Shown one piece after another: positions 6,033-59,933 of a stretch of DNA of 64,000 nt; the stretch's first letter is position 1; each line of letters opens with the position of its first letter. The stretch lies in NCBI RefSeq assembly GCF_001536285.1, contig NZ_FAOZ01000014.1, positions 1 through 64,000 on the forward strand, written 5' to 3'. Below the pieces are notes generated by a model that did no database searches, was not told the origin of the DNA, and was given only the letters and a program-made list of their open reading frames with translations. The position numbers and the translations under genes were made by a program. Origin of the DNA: Parafrankia irregularis. Its GTDB lineage: Bacteria > Actinomycetota > Actinomycetes > Frankiales > Frankiaceae.

Positions 6033-6869
6033 ATGAATATCGTCGAAGCGGTTTTCTTCGGTGCGGTCGAAGGGCTGACCGAGTTTCTCCCGATCTCCAG
6101 CACCGGTCATCTGACGATCATGGAGAAGGCCCTCGGTTACGAGATCGACAGCCCGGACATCACCGCCTTCACAGCGATCATCCAGGTTGGTGCGGTCTTT
6201 GCCACGCTGCTGTATCTCCGGCACGATTTCCGGCGCATCATCGCGGCCCTGGGTCGCGGGGCGACGCGCCCGGCATACCGGGATCATCCGGACTTCCGGT
6301 TCGGTGTGGCCGTGATCGTCGGGTCAATCCCGATCGGGATCGTCGGGCTTCTGTTCAAGGACCAGATCGAGACGACCCTGCGGAGTCTGTGGTTCGTCAG
6401 CCTCGCGCTGGTCGGGTGGAGCGGGGTCATGGCCTATGCCGACCGCGTTGCCACCCAGAAGCGCCACGAGGATGACGTCACCTGGAAGGACACCCTGGTC
6501 ATCGGGGTCGTCCAGTGCATGGCCCTGATTCCCGGGATCTCACGTTCCGGCTCGACGATGTCGGCCGGTCTGCTGCGCGGGATCGACCGCGTCACGGTGA
6601 CCCGGCTGTCGTTCTTCCTCTCCATCCCCGCGCTTTTCGCCGCGGCGCTGCTCCAGGTCGTCACAGAGTCGGCCAACATCTCGAACGGTGTCGGCTGGAC
6701 CATGACCATCACCGCGACGGCGGTGAGTTTCGTGACCGCCTATTTCGCCATCTCCTGGCTGCTCAAGTTCGTCGCGCGGCACAGCTACAGCGTCTTCATC
6801 ATCTACCGGCTCGCCCTCGGCAGCGTGCTGCTCTTCCTGCTGGGAACCGGCCTCATTTCGGCCACCTGA
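6033..6869 (+). CDS. uppP: Undecaprenyl-diphosphatase
   Basis: This 278-residue integral membrane enzyme dephosphorylates undecaprenyl pyrophosphate to recycle the lipid carrier for peptidoglycan synthesis; loss of function or overexpression affects bacitracin sensitivity. Both family signatures are present. EGLTEFLPISSTGHL (residues 10-24) carries the catalytic Glu residues, and PGISRSGSTMSAG (about 170) carries the phosphate-binding Arg and Ser. Length and hydrophobic profile match BacA/UppP. ATG 6033 follows GAGGAAGGA. It stands alone, divergent from tetR. Confidence 0.96.
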   Translation: MNIVEAVFFGAVEGLTEFLPISSTGHLTIMEKALGYEIDSPDITAFTAIIQVGAVFATLLYLRHDFRRIIAALGRGATRPAYRDHPDFRFGVAVIVGSIPIGIVGLLFKDQIETTLRSLWFVSLALVGWSGVMAYADRVATQKRHEDDVTWKDTLVIGVVQCMALIPGISRSGSTMSAGLLRGIDRVTVTRLSFFLSIPALFAAALLQVVTESANISNGVGWTMTITATAVSFVTAYFAISWLLKFVARHSYSVFIIYRLALGSVLLFLLGTGLISAT

Positions 6870-7121
6870 TCTCGGCCATCGGACCGTCTCGGTCACCGGG
6901 ACGTCTCGGCGACCGGAGCGCGGCCAGCGGCCCGCCGGCCGCATACAGGCGCTCCGTCTTCGGTAACCCGCCGCACCTCCAGTGCCGGTTTACCGCCAGG
7001 ATGTAGGGCCGCGCTGACGGCGCTGGCCGCGTGGGCAGCGCTGTGCGCCGATGAGGCCCGGTCGGCTCCTGGCGGGTGCGCAGGCTCCCCGCCGCCGCCG
7101 CGGCCGGCGTTGTCAACGGAC

Positions 7122-7169
7122 AAGAGTGGAGGATTTTGGTCGTCAGGACGACCAAAATCCTCCACTCTT
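7122..7169. repeat. Long perfect hairpin, copy 1 of a palindromic repeat family
   Basis: The arms 7122-7143 and 7148-7169 are perfectly complementary over 22 bp with a CAGG loop. The copy at 57956-58005 shares the frame AAGAGT-n-GAGGAT-nn-TGGTCGT, and the three differing positions are changed on both arms. It lies in the 6870-7370 gap between uppP and the ABC operon, which otherwise holds only a small hairpin (GGCAGA, 7308-7323) shortly before the ABC gene. It could be a terminator for uppP or a mobile palindromic element. Confidence 0.8.
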
Positions 7170-7370
7170 CGGGTCGGCGCGCCCCTGAATGAGACAGGAT
7201 CCAGCCGGTGGATGCATGAATGAGCGAAAACGACCAGTTCTACGCTCTCCCGGTGGCCAGCTGCGTCCCGGTGCATGGCTGGTCGAGCGGCGATTCGACA
7301 TCAAAGTGGCAGAACTTTCTGCCGTTACGATGTCATCGACCGCGCGTCGGGGGCGATCCGGAGGTGGCTG

Positions 7371-8453
7371 ATGGCGAACAGGCGTCTGGAGATCGACGGC
7401 GTTCGCAAACGCTACGGCGAGGTGACCGCTCTCGACGGCATGACGTTTGACGTGCGCGCCGGGGAGCTTTTCGGTTTCGTCGGCAGTAACGGCGCTGGCA
7501 AGACGACGACGATGCGGATCGTGCTCGGGGTGCTCGCGGCCGACGCGGGTGAGGTCCGCTGGGCCGGTCGGCCGGTCGACCTCGCCGTCCGTCGCCGGAT
7601 CGGCTACATGCCGGAAGAGCGGGGTCTTTACCCCAAGATGAAGGTCCGGGACCAGATCGTCTACCTGGCCCGGCTGCACGGGATGCCGTCCGGGGCCGCC
7701 CGACGCAGCGCCGAGGCGTGGCTGGAGCGGCTCGGTGTGGCGGCACGGCGCGACGACGAGGTCCAGAACCTCAGCCTCGGCAACCAGCAGCGCGTTCAGC
7801 TCGCCGCGGCGCTCGTCCACGACCCGGAGGTCCTCGTGCTCGACGAGCCGTTCTCCGGCCTGGACCCGGTCGCGGTCGACGTGATGAGCCAGGTGCTGCG
7901 CGAACGCAGCGCGGCCGGGGTCCCCGTGGTGTTCTCCAGCCACCAGCTGGAGCTCGTCGAGCGGCTCTGTGACCGGGTCGGCATCGTCGCCTCGGGCCGC
8001 ATGGTCGCCTGCGGCACGGTGGATGAGCTGCGCAGGGCCGGGACCGAGCAGATCGTGGTGGAGGTGCCCGGCGCGCCCGCCGGGTGGGCGCTCGACCTGC
8101 CCGGAATCACCGTCCGCCACACCGAGGGGGACCGGACGACCGTCGATCTCGCCCCGGGAGCGGACGATCAGGATCTGTTGCGCCGGGCGCTGGCGGCCGG
8201 GCCGGTGCGCGAGTTCCGCCGCCGCAGGCCGACGCTGGCGGAGCTGTTCCGCTCGGTGACCACTGTCTCCGCCGTGGCCACCGTCCCCGCTGCGGCCGGT
8301 GGCTCCGCCGGCGGGCCGGGTGACGTCCCGAGCCCTGCTGGGCGGACGGGGCCAGCCGGGCTAGCTGGGCCTGCCGGGCTTACTGCGTCTGCCGGGCTGG
8401 GGAGCTCCGGCAATGACGACGTGCGGGCGGCAGATGAGGAGACGGCGGTATGA
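7371..8453 (+). CDS. ABC transporter ATP-binding protein
   Basis: This 360-residue ATPase has Walker A GSNGAGKTT near residue 42, a signature region NLSLGNQQRVQLAAAL (LSLGN in place of LSGGQ), Walker B VLVLDEPFSGLDP and a switch His in SSHQLE. The C-terminal 80 residues resemble the DUF4162-type extension of NatA-like exporters, then become Gly/Pro/Ala rich. ATG 7371 is chosen because GGAGGTGG lies just upstream; a longer frame to 7275 lacks this. The stop overlaps the permease start by 4 bp, so the two form an exporter. The cargo (ion, drug or peptide) is not evident. Confidence 0.92.
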   Translation: MANRRLEIDGVRKRYGEVTALDGMTFDVRAGELFGFVGSNGAGKTTTMRIVLGVLAADAGEVRWAGRPVDLAVRRRIGYMPEERGLYPKMKVRDQIVYLARLHGMPSGAARRSAEAWLERLGVAARRDDEVQNLSLGNQQRVQLAAALVHDPEVLVLDEPFSGLDPVAVDVMSQVLRERSAAGVPVVFSSHQLELVERLCDRVGIVASGRMVACGTVDELRRAGTEQIVVEVPGAPAGWALDLPGITVRHTEGDRTTVDLAPGADDQDLLRRALAAGPVREFRRRRPTLAELFRSVTTVSAVATVPAAAGGSAGGPGDVPSPAGRTGPAGLAGPAGLTASAGLGSSGNDDVRAADEETAV

Positions 8454-9811: not shown

Positions 9812-9916
9812 GCGGCCTGTGTCCCGGGGTCCGCCGTGTTCCCGGAGTCCGCCGTGTTCCCGGGGTTCCCCAGGCCGTTCGAAGAGGAGAGGATTCTCGT
9901 CTTCCCGCCGCCCGCG

Positions 9917-21972: not shown

Positions 21973-23046
21973 TCAGACGTCCCGGACGATGGCGACCGGC
22001 GCGGCCGAGTGCAGCATCGTCTGATGGCTGACCGAGCCCAGGAGGAGCTCGGCGAACCCGCCCTTGCCACGTGCCCCGACGACCAGCAGATCGGCGTCCC
22101 GGCTCGCATCAAGCAGGGCTCGAGTCGCGGAGGCTGCCACCAGCAGCTTGTGAACGTCGATCTCCCGTACCTTCCGCGTGTCCGTGGTCTCGCTGGTACC
22201 GAGGGCTGCCTCGATCGATTCGTCCAGTACATGCCGAGCCTGATCCTCGAGCGCCGGCAGGATCTCGGCCGAGCTCTCGGCGAACGGAAGCGGGATCGCC
22301 GCGAGCCAGGCGTGCACGACATGCAGCGGTGCGCCGCGCAGCGCTGCCTCGCTCGCCGCCCAACGCAGCGCCGCGAGTGAGTTCGGCGAGCCGTCGACCC
22401 CGACGACCACCGGGTGCACGGCGTCCGCCTCGGTCTCGGGTGCTGAGCCGGTTGGCGCTTGGCCGGCTGATCCGGTGGGCTCGCTGTCGGAGGAGTCTAC
22501 GCGGCCCGCTTCGGCGTCATCCGACGGCCGGCGTGTGCGGGCGACGACGACAGGCACCGGTGAGTGCACGGCGACGGAGGCGCTCACCGACCCGATCCGG
22601 AGGCGATGAAGCAGTCCACGGCCTCGCGTACCGACGACGATCATCGCGGCGTCCCGGCCGGAGGTGAGCAGCGCCTCGGTGCCCGAAGCGTCGACGACCT
22701 CCTCGACGATGTCGAGTCCCGTCGGAATCGGCACGGCGTCGAGTTCCTCATGCAGGATCTGGCTGGCGGCCCAGGCCAGCGCCTCCTCGTCATGCGGACC
22801 GGCGACTGCCTCGGCAGAGCGGCGAACCGTGGGTGGCTGCTCCCCGGCGCATGACCCGAGAACCGCACGGATCCGCGCGCCCCGCCGGACGGCCTCGTCG
22901 ATCGCCCACCGCAGCGCGGACTCGGATCCCGGTGAACCGTCGATCCCGACGACGATGTCGGTCTTGGCGGTACCGCTGGAAGCGCTGCTGCCACGGGTGG
23001 AGGCGACGCCGCCGACGCCACGGCTGCTTCGGATGTCGTCGGTCAT
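21973..23046 (-). CDS. Tandem universal stress protein
   Basis: This 357-residue cytosolic protein has two UspA domains. The first (about residues 28-170) starts with IVVGIDGSPGSESALRWA and ends with the ATP-binding GTRGRGLLHRL...GSVS motif. The second (about 215-355) starts with VVVGVDGSPNSLAALRWA and ends with GARGKGGFAELLLGSVS. Both keep the G-x2-G-x9-G-S/T nucleotide pattern, so ATP binding is expected. Tandem Usp proteins of this size are typical of actinobacterial hypoxia or dormancy responses. ATG 23046 follows GGGAGGGAG. A 60-residue linker between domains is acidic and disordered. Confidence 0.93.
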   Translation of the reverse strand: MTDDIRSSRGVGGVASTRGSSASSGTAKTDIVVGIDGSPGSESALRWAIDEAVRRGARIRAVLGSCAGEQPPTVRRSAEAVAGPHDEEALAWAASQILHEELDAVPIPTGLDIVEEVVDASGTEALLTSGRDAAMIVVGTRGRGLLHRLRIGSVSASVAVHSPVPVVVARTRRPSDDAEAGRVDSSDSEPTGSAGQAPTGSAPETEADAVHPVVVGVDGSPNSLAALRWAASEAALRGAPLHVVHAWLAAIPLPFAESSAEILPALEDQARHVLDESIEAALGTSETTDTRKVREIDVHKLLVAASATRALLDASRDADLLVVGARGKGGFAELLLGSVSHQTMLHSAAPVAIVRDV

Positions 23047-24048
23047 GGAGCTCCCTCCCGCGATGGCATGACGGGGGCCGGCACACAGGGCTGACCCCGA
23101 GCCGGCACGGTCCCTGTGGCGGACCTACCCGGCCTGCCTGAGTGGAACCTACGGGCGATGCTGAGCTCTGGCCGCTCTGGCCGGTGGCTGTGGCCAGCGA
23201 CGTCTCAGCCTGGGCGCAGCCACCGGGCCGAGTGTCAATCGGTTGTCGCTTTTGTGGTGAGTGGCGCCACGGGTGTATGTCGATGATTGCGTATTTAGAT
23301 CTTCATCGTTGTGTTGCGTGTGTACTCTCGAGTGGCGATTTTCGGAGAAAATCGCCTCGGATCAGGCGTACCGCCGCCGGGCGTGTGCGGCCGTGCGCGC
23401 TCCGCTTTGTGATCTCTCTGTGTCCGCGCGCACTGCGCGTTCCGCACCGGTGTGCTGCGCGGGAGTCATCCGGGGTGCAGCTTTCCGGGCCATCCGCGTC
23501 CATTGGGATGCCGGCGGCTGTGTGCTCATTGTGTACTTCCAGTTGCCTTCTCAGGCTGCCGGCCCGGCTAATGGGCGCGCTGGGATCGTGGCTGGCCGTG
23601 AGTGTGATGAACAGACTGTGTTCCCCGTGTGGGCGGGGGGTGACTGCGGCCGGCGTGTCCCGTGGTGCGGCGGAGTAGCGTGCGGGTCCGGCCGAGGGCC
23701 CGCGTATCGTTGTCTCTTCCCTCGGGGCTGACTGAGAAGCCCCGGCTGGTTACGGATGACAATGCTGCATTCGACGAGACCCGCTCTCGGGTGATGGTGT
23801 TGCGTGCCCGGAGTCATACGCACGCGACAGTCAATTGCTCGAAAATTCGATCGGACAACGGTGAGACCTCAGAACAACGCGATCTAGCCGCCATGGAGGC
23901 CCTCCGCGACTGATAGCAAAGACCATCGAACGCGCCGACCGGCAGTCGTCGCTGCGTGACCACCCGGTCGCGGGCACGGGAGTTGACGGGGCTCAGTGCC
24001 CCGCGCACCAGGCGACCACAGGCCACCAGGAAGGAGGAAGGAGGAACC
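23047..24048. other. One-kilobase gap with atypical composition
   Basis: This is the longest stretch without a convincing gene. Frames here (for example 23142-23678) give Cys/Arg-rich products with no domain or ribosome site. The section 23230-23360 is clearly less GC-rich than the rest of the window and contains a hairpin. It should contain the promoters of the divergent stress-protein and winged-helix genes; it might also hold a non-coding RNA. Confidence 0.4.
23334..23356. repeat. AT-containing hairpin in the long gap
   Basis: A perfect 10-bp inverted repeat, GGCGATTTTC-GGA-GAAAATCGCC, lies about 290 bp upstream of the universal stress gene. It is possibly a terminator for a short transcript or a protein-binding site. 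Confidence 0.5.
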
Positions 24049-26232
24049 GTGGAATCCGACGCCACGACCCAGTTGCTCATTCCCGGCGCGCTAGTGATGG
24101 TCTGCACTCCCGACCGAGGAGTACCCGTCGCGGATGTGAAGGCCTGGCACGACGCTGTCATCCAGGCCAACTCGGGCGTGACACCGGCGATGCGGCTCGT
24201 CGCCACCTTGGTCGCCAACCTCGCCAGCCCGGCGGGTCCACCCGCGCCCAGCGGGTCCTACATCGCCTCGCCGGGCCTGCCGGACCTCTGCGGGATGACC
24301 AACTTCAGCCGCACCCACTCCCAGCGCCAGTTGTCGGCCCTGCGTGCCAAGGGCTGGCTGGTGACGATCATCCGTCCTGCGGCGGGCCGGCCGGCACGGT
24401 ACCTGCTGAGCGTGCCCAGCACGGTCGCGCAGGCAGGGGAGATCGCCCTCGCCGGTCCGGCTGTCGGATCCGGTTCGGGTGCCGACCTCGGCGCGGCTGG
24501 CGAGCCCGGTCCGGCCGAGGGCGTCGCGGATCCCGGCCGGGCGGAGTCGGCCATGTCGTCGGGCCAGGCTGCGGCGTCGCCTCGGGCTTCGATCCAGGCT
24601 GCGCCGCCCCTGGAGGATGACTTCCCCACGGGCACGGCGGCCGAGCGGCCGGCGCTGCTACGGCGTCGCAAGCGTGCGACGTACAGTTCGGCTGGCCGTG
24701 GGGTCGTCCGGGTCCGTCGCAAGCCGCGAAACCTCGAGCCGGCGGCTGTGACGGACCCGCGTGCGGCGGCCATACAGTCGCCCGCCGCCGTGGGGCGCGG
24801 TGCTGCCGCTCCCACCGGTTCGGCGGCGGGGCCCGAGACCAACTACGACGAGCGCGCCGCCGCTGTCGGCGAGACCGCCTACGTGCCCTTCGGCTCGGCG
24901 GGCTCCACTGTGGTCCCGGCGCCGGGGAGCCAGCCCGGGCCCGCTGCGGCCGGGCACCTGCACGCGGTCTCCGGCTCGGCCGGCCTGGCCGGGTATGCGG
25001 CGTCGACCGGTGGTTCGCCAGTCGTGGGGGACACAACGCCGGCGGTCACGGCCGGCGGTTCGTCGGCCGGCGCGGTGACGTTCGGCGCGGGAGCAGACAC
25101 CGAGCCACGAACCAATGCTGGTCCGCCCCTCGCCGGTCCGACGTCGCTGTTGGCCGACGTGCCGAGAGCGGCGGAGACCCGGCGAACCGAAGACGGTGAC
25201 AGCGCAGCGCTGGTATCCGGCCCGGTAGCACTCGGGTCGTCGATCGAGTCGGGCGGGCAGCCGCCCGGGTCGGAAGGCCGGCTGGAGCTGGACCCCGAGC
25301 CGACTCCCGAGGAGCCGACTCCCGAGGAGCCGACTCCCGCGCCCGAGCCGAAGGCCGAGGCCGAGCGTGAGCCGGAGCCCGAACCGGATCCCGCCATGGA
25401 GGAGATCCGTACGGCCACCCGCCAGGTGATCGACATCCTCGCGAACATGCTGCGCTGCCCGGCAGAGGACTTCGCCGAGCTGCACAAGAAAGTGTTCGAC
25501 GTGCTCTGCGAGAGCAACTGGGCGCCGGTCGAGTTGGCCACCCACCTGGTGAACTTCGTCGCCAACGGTGTCTGGGTGAACGACGGCGGGGTTGTGGACA
25601 ACATTCGGTGGCGCATGGACCGCCTGCCGCTGGGCGTGACCGAATGCAGTTGCAAGTCGTGCCTCGGCTGGCGAGCCATGCCGGACCGGCCATCGAAGTC
25701 GAAGTCGGCGGCTCGGCCCGCGTCACGTTCCGCAGGTGCGTCCGCGGCGGGCGGAAGCGGAGGAAGTGGTACCGGCTCACCGCCTGGTCCGGTGCGAGCG
25801 GTCACGACCTCGGCGACCACCAGGCCGGCGGCGGCGTCCGCCGGCAGCCCGACCGGAGGCTCTCCCGGCTCCGCCGCACCGTCTCGTCGACCCTCGGCCC
25901 AAGGTGGCCAGGCGGGCACGCGCCGGACGGGTGCGCGGGGCTCGGGTGCCCCACCCGCGTCGACGGCGGCGAACTCCAGCGCCCCCGCGGATCCGCTTCC
26001 GTTACCGACGCCACAGGCGTTGCCGCCACCGCCAGATCTGGCGGCGATCGTGGCCGCGGCGGAGGCCGGGGCGCAGGAAGCGCTGGAAAAACAGCAGGCA
26101 CAGGAGCAGCGCGAGAAGCAGGAGCAACAGCAGGCGCAGGAGAAGTGGGAGGTAGAGGAGCGGCAGGAACAACCGATGCTCGATCCTGAGTCGGCGATGG
26201 AGCCGCTGGAGGACCCCGCTCAGGAACCCTGA
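24049..26232 (+). CDS. Winged-helix-like protein with long disordered linker and Cys-containing C-terminal domain
   Basis: This 727-residue protein is not assigned to a named family. The N-terminal 130 residues look like a winged helix (PDLCGMTNFSRTHSQRQLSA then LRAKGWLVTIIRPA and RPARYLLSVPS). A disordered Ala/Gly/Pro linker of more than 300 residues follows, with an EEPTPEEPTPEEPTP repeat. A compact conserved-looking domain (about residues 450-545) ends in a CSCKSC motif that may bind metal. The tail is Pro-rich and ends in a Gln/Glu coiled segment. GTG 24049 is chosen for the adjacent GGAGGAAGGAGG. The architecture recalls replication or regulatory DNA-binding proteins of actinobacteria; this is inference. 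Confidence 0.6.
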   Translation: MESDATTQLLIPGALVMVCTPDRGVPVADVKAWHDAVIQANSGVTPAMRLVATLVANLASPAGPPAPSGSYIASPGLPDLCGMTNFSRTHSQRQLSALRAKGWLVTIIRPAAGRPARYLLSVPSTVAQAGEIALAGPAVGSGSGADLGAAGEPGPAEGVADPGRAESAMSSGQAAASPRASIQAAPPLEDDFPTGTAAERPALLRRRKRATYSSAGRGVVRVRRKPRNLEPAAVTDPRAAAIQSPAAVGRGAAAPTGSAAGPETNYDERAAAVGETAYVPFGSAGSTVVPAPGSQPGPAAAGHLHAVSGSAGLAGYAASTGGSPVVGDTTPAVTAGGSSAGAVTFGAGADTEPRTNAGPPLAGPTSLLADVPRAAETRRTEDGDSAALVSGPVALGSSIESGGQPPGSEGRLELDPEPTPEEPTPEEPTPAPEPKAEAEREPEPEPDPAMEEIRTATRQVIDILANMLRCPAEDFAELHKKVFDVLCESNWAPVELATHLVNFVANGVWVNDGGVVDNIRWRMDRLPLGVTECSCKSCLGWRAMPDRPSKSKSAARPASRSAGASAAGGSGGSGTGSPPGPVRAVTTSATTRPAAASAGSPTGGSPGSAAPSRRPSAQGGQAGTRRTGARGSGAPPASTAANSSAPADPLPLPTPQALPPPPDLAAIVAAAEAGAQEALEKQQAQEQREKQEQQQAQEKWEVEERQEQPMLDPESAMEPLEDPAQEP

Positions 26233-56520: not shown

Positions 56521-57441
56521 CTACTCGGCGTCCACGACGGGCACCAGGCCCTCCGGGTGCGCGACGAGCGCCGCGGCCGCTGTGCGAAGGCTGCCCAGCG
56601 CCGCCTGCATGTTCCAGGACGCCCGGTCCCGCCGCCCGACCAGATTGCTGATCGCCCGGATCTCGATCACCGGCACTCCGAAGGCCCCGGCCGCGACGCC
56701 CACAGCGTGGCCTTCCATCGCCTCCGCGATCGGATCCAGCCGCGCCGTGAAGGTGGCGGCCCGCCGCTCGGTTCCGGTGACGGTCGACACGGTGATGACG
56801 GTGCCGCTGACAATTCTGCGCCCAGTGACGCCCAGCACCGATGTCATCCGCCGCACCAGGCCCGGGTCGGGCCGCACCGTCGACGATCCCAGCCCCAGGT
56901 CATCCATGGTCAGGAACGCGCCGGTCGGAGCCGAGCTGGCCGGTGGACCCGGCTGGGCCGCCGGTGCTCCGGCGGGATGGAATCCCAGGTTGCGGTCCAT
57001 CTCACTGATCCTGACCGGGGGGATGACTTCGGCCGGCTCGTCGAGCCCGGACTCGGCGCCCAGGTCGGCCGCGACCATCTGGTCGGCGATGACCAGGTCG
57101 CCGATCTCGGCCCAGCCGCGGAACCCGCCCGCGACCCCCATCGCGATGACCAGCCCGAACGGCTCGCCCGCCGCGCTCGCGACGGACAGCGCCACCGCGG
57201 TTCCGGCGGCGGCCGCCGCACCGGCCGGACCGGCCGCGAGCACGGTCACCGGGCCACGCCGCCGGCCGACATACGGGCCGAGGGTCGAGGTGGTCAGCAG
57301 CTGCCGGTCCCAGTCCGGAGAGACGAGCCCCCCGGGGCCGGACGGGGTGCGTGCGCGGCTGCGCGACCAGCTCCCCATCAGACCGGCGCACACCGCGTCC
57401 GCCTCGGCGTTCACCGCGGTGACGATGAGGGTGCGGGTCAT
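56521..57441 (-). CDS. mqnB: Futalosine hydrolase
   Basis: This 306-residue nucleosidase releases hypoxanthine from futalosine in the alternative menaquinone pathway. The phosphorylase-fold markers are VIAMGVAGGFRGWAEIGDLV and EGHAVGVAAGAFGVP, and EIRAISNLVGRRD is the futalosine-hydrolase form of the catalytic region. Two insertions (about residues 25-50 and 150-180, Pro/Ala-rich) make it longer than the usual 220-260. ATG 57441 (MTRTLIVTAVNAEA) starts exactly at the domain; longer frames are rejected. mqnD is 122 bp downstream, supporting a small mqn operon. Confidence 0.92.
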   Translation of the reverse strand: MTRTLIVTAVNAEADAVCAGLMGSWSRSRARTPSGPGGLVSPDWDRQLLTTSTLGPYVGRRRGPVTVLAAGPAGAAAAAGTAVALSVASAAGEPFGLVIAMGVAGGFRGWAEIGDLVIADQMVAADLGAESGLDEPAEVIPPVRISEMDRNLGFHPAGAPAAQPGPPASSAPTGAFLTMDDLGLGSSTVRPDPGLVRRMTSVLGVTGRRIVSGTVITVSTVTGTERRAATFTARLDPIAEAMEGHAVGVAAGAFGVPVIEIRAISNLVGRRDRASWNMQAALGSLRTAAAALVAHPEGLVPVVDAE

Positions 57442-57955
57442 GACCCGTTCAAGATCATGTTGTGGATGTGTCCTTCGTGTGCCGTCGTGCCGATGGGCTG
57501 CCGGCTGCGGGCAGGCGACCGTGCCGGACGGCGAAGTAACGCCACGATGCCTGGGAGGTGGTGCAAACCGGACTAGTTGACGGACCCTAGCACCGCGATC
57601 GACCCTCCGTGGTTCTGTGTACGCCATGTGATTTCGTCGTCACGACAAGTATGCGATCTGGGCTTCCGGGCAAGATCTGATGACGGTGCTCGCTGCGACC
57701 TGCGACCTCGGGATGTCGCTGCTGCCGAGCAAGGTCTGAGGGAGATGGTCGCCGGGGGCGCGGGGGAGCAGAGCGGAATCCCGATAAGTGGCGGATTCGG
57801 GGCCACCAGCATTGGCCTGGCGGTCCGAGGTCCGTGTCCATTCGCCGCACGGCCGCACGGCCGCACGCCGGGCATCCCTGCTGTCGCGCCGCCGTGCCGC
57901 GCAGGCAGTTCACATCAAGGGAGGTAAAAGGGGCGAGGAGCGACCTGGCAATCCG

Positions 57956-58005
57956 CAAGAGTTGAGGATCGTGGTCGTTTTTACGACCACGATCCTCAAC
58001 TCTTG
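57956..58005. repeat. Long perfect hairpin, copy 2 of a palindromic repeat family
   Basis: The arms 57956-57978 and 57983-58005 are perfectly complementary over 23 bp with a TTTT loop. It matches the copy at 7122-7169 except at three stem positions, each changed on both arms. It lies in the 57442-58073 gap between the mqnB start and the MFS gene stop; the rest of that gap has no convincing gene. Confidence 0.85.
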
Positions 58006-58073
58006 CCCAGCAGCAGTCGCAGGCCGAGGCTCGGCGTGGCGCCTACGGCGAACTGAACGAACGCCGATGGTGT

Positions 58074-59933
58074 CTAGTGCTGGCGACCACGGCGTGCGCG
58101 GCCACGTCCCGGGTGGTCGCCTACCGGCCGCGGCGGATCCGGCGCCGCGGGTTCGGGGCCGGGCGGGTCCGCCGCCGGCACGCCGAGATCCGGAACGGTG
58201 TGATCGGGCACGGTGCAGTCGGGCAGGCTGAGATCTGGAACGGTGCGATCGGGAACCGTGAGATCAGGCACGGTGAGATCCGGAAGCGTCGGGTTTCCGG
58301 CCGGCGACCGTGCGCCCCGCGGCCAGCCCCGCGGATCACGCCACCCGACCGGGACGTCGGCGCGCTGGTCGGGGGTGACGCCGACCGGGCCGGGATCGGC
58401 CATGGCCGTCACGGCGTAGCCGTCGCGGCCGGTCGCTGGCAGAGGCCCGCCGGTCGGGTGCGCGGCGCCTGTCGGGTGCGGGGTTGCTGGCGGGTGCGGC
58501 GTGGCCGGTGGGTGCGGTACGGCCGGTGGGACATGGAAGTCTGGCGTGGCCGGTGGTGCCAGGAGGTCTGGTGGGGCCGGTGGGCCAACCGGGGCGGCGG
58601 CCGACGCAGTCCGCACCTGCCGCTCGCGGGCGTGTGCCCTGGCCTGGCGCAGGGCACGGGCCTGCAGGATCAGAGTCAGCCCGACGGCTGCGGCCGCGAG
58701 GGCGAAACCGAGCGCTCCAGGCATCTCGATCAGCCCCAGCGCTCCGCCGAGAACCCAGCCGAGCTGCAGCGCTGTCTCCGAGCGGGCGAAGGCGGAGCCG
58801 CGGGTGTCCTCCACGATGTCGCGCTGGATGATCGCGTCCAGGGCGAGCTTGGCCATCGAGCCGGCGGTCATCGCCGCCAGCGCCGCCACCAGCGAAGTCA
58901 GCCGGGTGTAGGTCACCGCGGCCAGCAGGCAGCCGCTTGTCGGCAGCAGCAGGCTCAGCACCAGGATGCCCTCCGGGCGGCGGCGGCCGAGCCGGCCACC
59001 GATCAGCACGCCGATGCCGCTACCGACACCGGCGGTCGCCGCCAGGGCGCCGAGCCAGAGGTTGTTGCCGCCGTTCGTTCGCAGCAGGAAAGCCAGATAA
59101 AAGGTGAGAAAGCCCACCAGGCCGCGCAACACGAGCGTCGCCCGCAGCGCTACCGGAAGAGCGCCGAGCACCGCCACGACCCGGTTCCGCAGGTTGCCTC
59201 GCCGGCGCGGACCGGTCAGCTCGCGCAGCGTCCGCTCGCCGGCGGCGGAGTCGACATGACCGGGCAGGTTGAAGGCGAGCAGAACGCCGGCCATGTAGAC
59301 CAGTGCGCAGACCCGTAGAACCCACGGATAGCCGACGAATGGGATGTTGGCCAACCCAAGGCCCAGCGGGGCGACGATCGCGCCGGCCACGATGTTGACC
59401 AGTGAGATCCGTGAGTTGACTTTCACCAGGGTCAGTTCCGACGGTGTGACGCGCGGAACAACAGCGCTGCGAGCGACACCAAAGGCCCGGGAGAGCACGA
59501 GCAGACCCAGCGCGAGCGGGTAGACGGCGAGACCGTCGAGGGCACCGGCGAGCTGCCAGGCCAGCAGACAGCGCCCCAGGCAGATGGCCGCGAGCGCGGT
59601 GCGCCGGCCGTAGGCGACCCGGTCCAGCAGCGGACCCACGATCGGCGCCAGCAGGGCGAACGGAACCATGGTGATCAACAGGTACAGCGCGACCTTGGAA
59701 CGGGCCTCACCGGTCGGTACCGCGAAGAACAACGATCCGGCCAGTGCGACTGTGACAAGCGCATCACCGGCCGCGTTGACGAACGACAGCTCGGTCAACG
59801 AGGAGAGCCCGGACTGTTGCGCGCCGTCGCGGCGAATGGTCGCACGCAGGCGGTTCACTCCCTGGGTGAGCGTGCTTCCGAACTTCACCCTGACGAGTCT
59901 GCTCGCCGTCACCGCCCGAGACCACGACCACAT
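58074..59933 (-). CDS. MFS transporter with Pro-rich C-terminal tail
   Basis: This protein is 619 residues from ATG 59933; GTG 59888 (VKFGSTLTQGVN) is an alternative without the upstream Trp/Arg leader. About 12 membrane helices in residues 45-430 show the MFS pattern (LLDRVAYGRRTALA is the loop 2-3 motif; GGRLGRRRPEGILV its repeat). The C-terminal 190 residues are disordered, with PHPPATPHPPATPHPTG and repeats of VPDLTVPDLTVPDRTVPDL type. It is divergent from the DUF3027 gene, as its mycobacterial counterpart is. The substrate is unknown. Confidence 0.88.
   Translation of the reverse strand: MWSWSRAVTASRLVRVKFGSTLTQGVNRLRATIRRDGAQQSGLSSLTELSFVNAAGDALVTVALAGSLFFAVPTGEARSKVALYLLITMVPFALLAPIVGPLLDRVAYGRRTALAAICLGRCLLAWQLAGALDGLAVYPLALGLLVLSRAFGVARSAVVPRVTPSELTLVKVNSRISLVNIVAGAIVAPLGLGLANIPFVGYPWVLRVCALVYMAGVLLAFNLPGHVDSAAGERTLRELTGPRRRGNLRNRVVAVLGALPVALRATLVLRGLVGFLTFYLAFLLRTNGGNNLWLGALAATAGVGSGIGVLIGGRLGRRRPEGILVLSLLLPTSGCLLAAVTYTRLTSLVAALAAMTAGSMAKLALDAIIQRDIVEDTRGSAFARSETALQLGWVLGGALGLIEMPGALGFALAAAAVGLTLILQARALRQARAHARERQVRTASAAAPVGPPAPPDLLAPPATPDFHVPPAVPHPPATPHPPATPHPTGAAHPTGGPLPATGRDGYAVTAMADPGPVGVTPDQRADVPVGWRDPRGWPRGARSPAGNPTLPDLTVPDLTVPDRTVPDLSLPDCTVPDHTVPDLGVPAADPPGPEPAAPDPPRPVGDHPGRGRARRGRQH

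Follow-up and report, generated by a model that had tools for sequence, protein, structure and literature searches.

Two long hairpins of Parafrankia irregularis as probable members of a lineage-specific, REP/BIME-like family of palindromic repeats

The window, which refers here to the whole 64,000-nucleotide stretch of Parafrankia irregularis DNA analysed (contig NZ_FAOZ01000014.1, positions 1 to 64,000), contains two long hairpins, each of which lies between called genes, as a preliminary description of this DNA had stated. Copy 1 is located in the spacer between a BacA-family gene (ORF 6033-6869, + strand) and an ABC-transporter ATPase gene (ORF 7275-8453, + strand, scanned from 7371), and copy 2 in the spacer between a PNP_UDP_1-domain gene (56521-57627, − strand) and an MFS gene (58074-59933, − strand). 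The features of the two copies are as follows.

7122..7169, no strand: copy 1 stem-loop, 22-bp perfect stem, loop CAGG
7104..7177, − strand: copy 1 profile match, hairpin and short flanks with no left module found (62.6 bits, model positions 197-269)
57736..58033, + strand: copy 2 full-length family element, consisting of left module, hairpin and start of right module (iterated nhmmer, 215 bits, model positions 2-280 of 281)
57736..57954, + strand: copy 2 left module, with the conserved stretch ..GTTCACATCAAGGGAGGTAAAAGGGGCG..GACCTGGCAATCCGC adjoining the stem (alignment of 32 long copies)
57955..58006, no strand: copy 2 stem-loop, 24-bp perfect stem, loop TTTT

In an inverted-repeat scan of the window, the two copies come out longer than any other perfect inverted repeat, in agreement with the claim that both hairpins are perfect. 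The arms of copy 2 (57955-57978 and 57983-58006) are 24 nt each with a gap of 4 nt, and the stem, rightly called perfect, measures 24 bp where 23 bp had been given, one pair short; the 22 bp given for copy 1 is correct, with arms of 23 nt (7122-7144 and 7147-7169) and a gap of 2 nt, equivalent to 22 bp and a CAGG loop whose outer C and G are paired. The arm frame common to both copies is also as described, and so are the three positions at which they differ with pairing retained. Folds of 91-101 nt around the two copies have z scores of −6.3 to −9.5 relative to shuffles, with copy 2 (101 nt) reaching −61.3 kcal/mol on the + strand and −62.3 kcal/mol on the − strand (z −8.6 and −9.5). No match to an Rfam model attains the gathering score in the window, and at copy 2 there are only three sub-threshold look-alikes of miRNA precursors. 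A scan of the window for intrinsic terminators lists neither copy, and neither stem is followed by a T-run.

With up to 3 mismatches allowed, the arm pattern has five matches in the window, four of which are the arms of copies 1 and 2, compared with 0.01 expected from shuffles. A lone arm-like match with 3 mismatches lies at 9882-9903 (+ strand) and is not among the loci of the element profile. Within the MFS gene, near-tandem 15-bp units at 58185-58290, read by eye, would encode a repeated TVPDL-like pentapeptide in the C-terminal tail of the transporter; repeats resembling these units are found in the corresponding region of another genome of the genus (G005).

The two hairpins are part of a large set. 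In the window's genome (G000, 9.54 Mb) there are 191 forward and 174 reverse arm matches at up to 3 mismatches, where the reversed control gives 1 and 0. These 365 matches against a single control match, together with a REP-like placement, bear out the suggestion of a dispersed intergenic palindromic family; many further copies are present genome-wide, whose absence the preliminary description had named as a refutation. The full palindrome with the frame originally described occurs at two places in the genome, only copy 1 and copy 2. Parafrankia sp. EUN1f (G001) has 163 and 162 arm matches (control 0 and 1), four other genomes of the same genus (G002-G005) have 0 to 3 (controls 0 to 2), and across the 58 genomes examined, the window's included, the count beyond G000 and G001 is at most 4 in any genome. 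These counts add a large family of palindromic repeats from an actinobacterial lineage, present within the genus in only two of the six genomes examined, and both carriers, the window's species and EUN1f, are closely related plant-symbiotic bacteria.

A covariance model was built from 76 hairpins, the rows that remained of 79 once one out-of-register hairpin, one half hairpin and one duplicate were dropped, and 105 candidates were scored per genome. Matches extend up to the 105 scored candidates in G000 and likewise in EUN1f, and there are none in G002-G005 at E ≤ 0.001 or at E ≤ 0.1. Copy 1, itself one of the 76 training rows, has the highest score among the matches listed (74.3 bits). The iterated nhmmer profile, in which copy 2 has 215 bits, was itself seeded from this copy; a blastn search with the copy 2 spacer gives about 40 further places in EUN1f, spanning window positions ~57707-58034. 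Profile loci number 62 in G000, over 1.25 Mb that was partly selected for matches and partly contiguous, and 15 in 0.375 Mb of EUN1f. Scaling by arm matches gives an estimate of ~260 (263) loci in the window's genome, a figure that is rough because the G000 stretches were partly chosen for matches. The family is sparse in G000:C1:40001-400000 (3 profile loci in 360 kb), and its distribution along the chromosome appears uneven.

Beyond the two carriers, the covariance model has matches in one further genome, G011, which belongs to a different genus of the same family: five at three places, and 8 rows at five places at E ≤ 0.1; two of these hairpins (L188 and L189) have GAGGATTnnGGTCGC and a 4-nt loop in common. 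G011 has a few such long hairpins (L188-L191) with a core near GAGGATTnnGGTCGC/GCGACCnnAATCCTC, the L189 one lying between convergent ORFs. In a one-per-species genome collection, from which records of the window's genome or of very close ones were possibly left out, the core palindrome is found at 9 loci, all in EUN1f, and the exact full palindrome at none. Among 393 genomes sampled from the class, the core pattern has 67 matches in G000 and 46 in EUN1f, with 14 others having no more than 2 each; seven of these 14 have a single motif in common (identical in six, a variant in one) with the look of a conserved coding site, presumably gyrA, and chance hairpins of terminator type may explain the matches in G250 and G330. 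Searches of viral contigs with the core pattern, and of plasmids and phages with the copy 2 element, gave no match.

Family units take the form of a hairpin alone, of pairs spaced by ~95 bp, or of a hairpin inside a modular element of ~280-330 bp. The stem is 22-24 bp, and the loop is 4 nt in all 44 facing-arm pairs. Long copies have a left module ahead of the stem, with a consensus near GCAATTCACCTCAAGAGGGACAAAAGGGGC...GGCAACCCGC, which is present in copy 2 and absent from copy 1; across 32 long copies the left-module consensus is GCAATTCaCc.CAAgAGgG.CAAAAGGGGC...CcTGGCaAtCCGC. Enriched words define right modules with GCTCGGCAGCAG and with CCGAGGCTCGGG / GCTCGGGATTCTGC. The stems fall into subtypes, among them AAGAGTTGAGGAT, AAGAGTGAAGGAT, AAGAAGTGAGGAT and AAGATCTGAGGAT, each with its matching arm, and hybrids also occur. 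A 48-row alignment has no conserved GTAG/CGTC tag at the foot, in the columns beyond the stem.

Placement relative to genes was counted with gene positions from a simple custom gene caller. Seventy-four of 77 element loci do not overlap a called gene, and the remaining three overlap by 0.05 to 0.23. By type of spacer, 32 loci are convergent, 36 tandem, 5 divergent and 4 untyped, and the available spacer bases amount to 48 kb, 155 kb and 96 kb for the convergent, tandem and divergent types respectively. In G000, 82 of the 120 adjoining gene ends are 3' ends, compared with 41% expected from spacer length, and the median distance to the element is 72 bp from 3' ends and 199 bp from 5' ends. This placement, in which gene 3' ends and convergent spacers are favoured and divergent spacers depleted, is the pattern of REPs. 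Clustering of the 116 flanking proteins, which leaves room for a lone transposase neighbour, gave no recurring neighbour gene, the largest cluster having five members (ABC ATPases) and the next four.

G000 and EUN1f are ~95% identical over aligned blocks, and for 41 of the 62 G000 loci a place between matching flanks was identified in the EUN1f sequence covered (for the other 21 it was not). A family element is present at the matching EUN1f place for 34 of the 41, or at 33 of 40 distinct sites when two inverted copies on C23 that both map to one EUN1f copy are merged, and is absent at 7. Ranked against all 40 distinct EUN1f copies, the orthologously placed copy comes first in 16 of the 34 cases; in the other 18 it ranks from 4 to 40, one of them having no match, and the ranks for copies 1 and 2 are 32nd and 28th. 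Comparing the hairpins alone, at 27 of the 34 loci, gives a mean identity of 36.4 of 48 positions versus 33.0 for random pairs, with nine pairs at 38 or more and two further out-of-register pairs seen by eye. The combination of 34 occupied sites in 41 with only 16 best matches in 34 implies that sites are mostly inherited and their contents often replaced; independent insertions at the same spacers would be rare, given ~260 loci among several thousand spacers. In the copy 2 spacer, the hairpin score, on its own scale, is 39.2 in the window and 24.2 for the family hairpin of EUN1f, and four sister species have imperfect hairpins at 21.0-26.4.

Four of the seven loci lacking an EUN1f element were aligned (three were skipped as too long), and one gave a clean join: a G000-only insert of 440 bp that carries a family element (G000:C2 271,662-272,102) has TGACGT on both sides, a sequence that is single in EUN1f. 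The ends of this insert are not recognised in other copies. On C23 of G000 (22,473-24,400), a 1.9-kb segment has inverted family elements of ~350 and 410 bp around a gene; their aligned parts are 94% and 100% identical, EUN1f has a single element there, and the pair is a recent inverted duplication. Pfam gives no match for the gene inside the segment, and the C-terminal part of its protein has what we take to be the look of a DUF559/VSR-type nuclease. For the 62 loci, C23 pair aside, the best match within the G000 sequence covered has a median identity of ~82%, and no locus has one of 90% or more over at least 80 bp; with such a median, recent spread looks slight.

Pairing in the stems was compared at two depths. 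Across the 76 distinct hairpins, 86.1% of cells are paired, versus 80.3% when shuffled and 34-51% when slid, and 138 cells are changed on both sides, versus a shuffled mean of 62.7 (none of 500 shuffles as high; best slid version 65), although kinship inflates such counts. Paired variation, noted at first for two copies, therefore extends across the family. The selective reading then placed on it fares less well, as copies 1 and 2 belong to different palindromic subtypes and there is no support for the view that their paired differences track selection on the stem at each site. Nor do true orthologs support per-site selection, since their changes are mostly one-sided and about half of the common sites, those of copies 1 and 2 included, hold different family members: in nine ortholog pairs (at least 41 of 48 positions identical), 44 stem pairs have changed, of which 3 are compensatory; 16 changed on one arm and still pair, 22 changed on one arm with a pair broken or restored, and 3 are other. 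Paired change at single sites is thus not the rule on a recent time scale. In the same nine pairs, differences amount to 48 of 396 stem positions, 3 of 36 loop positions and 244 of 1201 aligned positions in the 70-bp flanks, and because the stem has diverged less than the flanks some constraint on it is possible. Diversification of the family kept pairing, and the stem may be somewhat constrained.

A separate idea, that a perfect stem marks a young copy, found no support. The 41 placed loci were used, three having no in-register hairpin and one out-of-register vertical locus being removed by hand; non-vertical loci have a median of 17 of 22 pairs (24 loci) and vertical loci 19 (13 loci), with p = 0.64. 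Every one of the five stems that have 21-22 pairs belongs to a non-vertical locus (5 of 24 versus 0 of 13), too few for a claim.

We consider it probable, at roughly 70%, that the hairpins are members of a lineage-specific, intergenic, non-coding and non-autonomous family of REP/BIME-like palindromic interspersed repeats; the assignment of the family to the class of REP/BIME-like mosaic repeats is well supported. The family would have spread on the stem lineage leading to both species and would since have been rewritten by copying between members, through ectopic exchange or through insertion into or beside a resident member, with individual copies drifting after copying. The palindromic form may have been kept because the source copies were themselves palindromic. 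The 3' bias could reflect loss of copies that harmed genes or promoters, and an incidental effect on transcript ends is possible. Mobility may be at work, but only one of the seven loci without an EUN1f element gives a clean join, and its 6-bp TGACGT direct repeat would suit a deletion in EUN1f equally well.

Which enzyme could have done the copying bears on one of the alternatives, a REPIN/RAYT system in which the palindromes are moved by a genome-encoded Y1 tyrosine transposase. Copy number, extragenic placement and palindromic form are all as such a system would have them, and G000 has two matches to PF01797, which we take to comprise the Y1 transposases, RAYTs included. A REP-associated tyrosine transposase, suggested in the preliminary description, does not hold up as the mover of the family, however: EUN1f has no PF01797 match at a similar family copy number (in a 400-contig draft, where a gap is possible), and G002, G003 and G004 have 4, 3 and 9 matches without the family (G005 has none), so that the family does not track the Y1 transposase. 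One of the two G000 genes (L061) adjoins an ORF with a CxxC...CxxC end, an arrangement seen in ordinary IS605-type elements, and the stem foot has no GTAG/CGTC tag. This system is highly improbable; no candidate enzyme emerged, and the copying enzyme was probably other than a Y1/RAYT transposase. A DDE-type transposase acting in trans on MITEs, which derive by deletion from an insertion sequence and carry terminal repeats and target duplications, would suit the modular unit of ~300 bp, the TGACGT-flanked insert and the C23 segment with its gene between long inverted element ends. Against it, the C23 protein has no Pfam match, many copies are hairpin-only or mosaic, and the four aligned loci gave no common termini and no second direct repeat; a MITE origin is doubtful, if possible.

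Two further explanations concern the stem itself. Bidirectional terminators or 3'-end stabilisers, in which a long stem without a U-tract ends or protects the flanking transcripts and is kept for its usefulness, would account for elements behind stop codons and between convergent genes, for very stable folds on both strands, for structure preserved across subtypes and for the lower divergence of stems than flanks, and similar-core hairpins in other genomes (L189, L200) likewise lie between convergent ORFs. Such a role is nonetheless unlikely, with no T-run after either copy, mostly one-sided stem changes between orthologs, and the same placement reported for known REPs in the accessible text of PMC3733652. 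Hairpin-templated repair, whereby a polymerase switches template and rewrites one arm from the other, making perfect palindromes without selection, fits perfect stems of different sequence and two-sided differences between copies, but only 3 of the 44 changed pairs in true orthologs are compensatory and the subtypes recur at many loci, which calls for spreading rather than local correction; we regard it as very unlikely. Against the odds, the palindromes may be landing pads or exchange sites, at which a non-Y1 enzyme or hairpin exchange would repeatedly swap the resident member for another at fixed 3'-end sites. The core GAGGATTnnGGTCGYC would be the recognised part, since G011, of another genus, has a few hairpins with the same core, and site occupancy would be inherited while the sequence is swapped.

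Set beside known systems, the preferred reading of a REP/BIME-like repeat family has several points of contact. ERIC, Correia elements and MITEs are intergenic elements of ~100-300 bp with stem-forming parts, and the Parafrankia family, compared by description only, is like them in size, intergenic position and stem-forming parts and differs in that no constant target duplication or terminal repeats are established for it. REP and BIME sequences are short palindromes that lie outside genes in many copies, on the downstream side of coding regions and in convergent or unidirectional spacers, occurring as singles, pairs and mosaics (accessible parts of PMC3733652 and PMC1525189). The Parafrankia family is likewise extragenic, high-copy, 3'-biased and single, paired or mosaic; in contrast, it has a stem of 22-24 bp, a constant 4-nt loop and a larger, asymmetric unit of ~300 bp, and it has neither the GTAG/CGTC foot tag nor, in the EUN1f draft, a detected Y1 transposase. 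In Pseudomonas fluorescens SBW25, REPINs take the form of inverted doublets linked to RAYT genes beside them (PMC3116915, in the part available), and the comparison with the Parafrankia family is mixed: both are non-autonomous palindromic units that replicate within the genome, whereas no RAYT-type gene tracks the Parafrankia family.

Among the matches listed from the Frankia/Parafrankia repeat literature in the PMC open subset, there is no description of the family. The portions available of a survey of Frankia insertion sequences (PMC2770080) contain no word beginning with palindrom, no MITE and no EUN1f; those of PMC4447401 give a general tally of perfect palindromes in ACN14a, CcI3, EAN1pec and Dg1, with EUN1f not among them; and those of PMC6735867, PMC3188489 and PMC3733652 do not describe the family, Frankia being unmentioned in the last. 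The family resembles known palindromic repeats, apparently without the enzyme that explains classical REP families. Small variable segments, in which intergenic content, palindromic units included, differs between close strains (PMC2884548, accessible part), differ in that both alternatives at a Parafrankia site belong to one repeat family. With most sites in common and about half of their contents, G000 and EUN1f offer a ready system for the spread and turnover of repeats that have no known enzyme.
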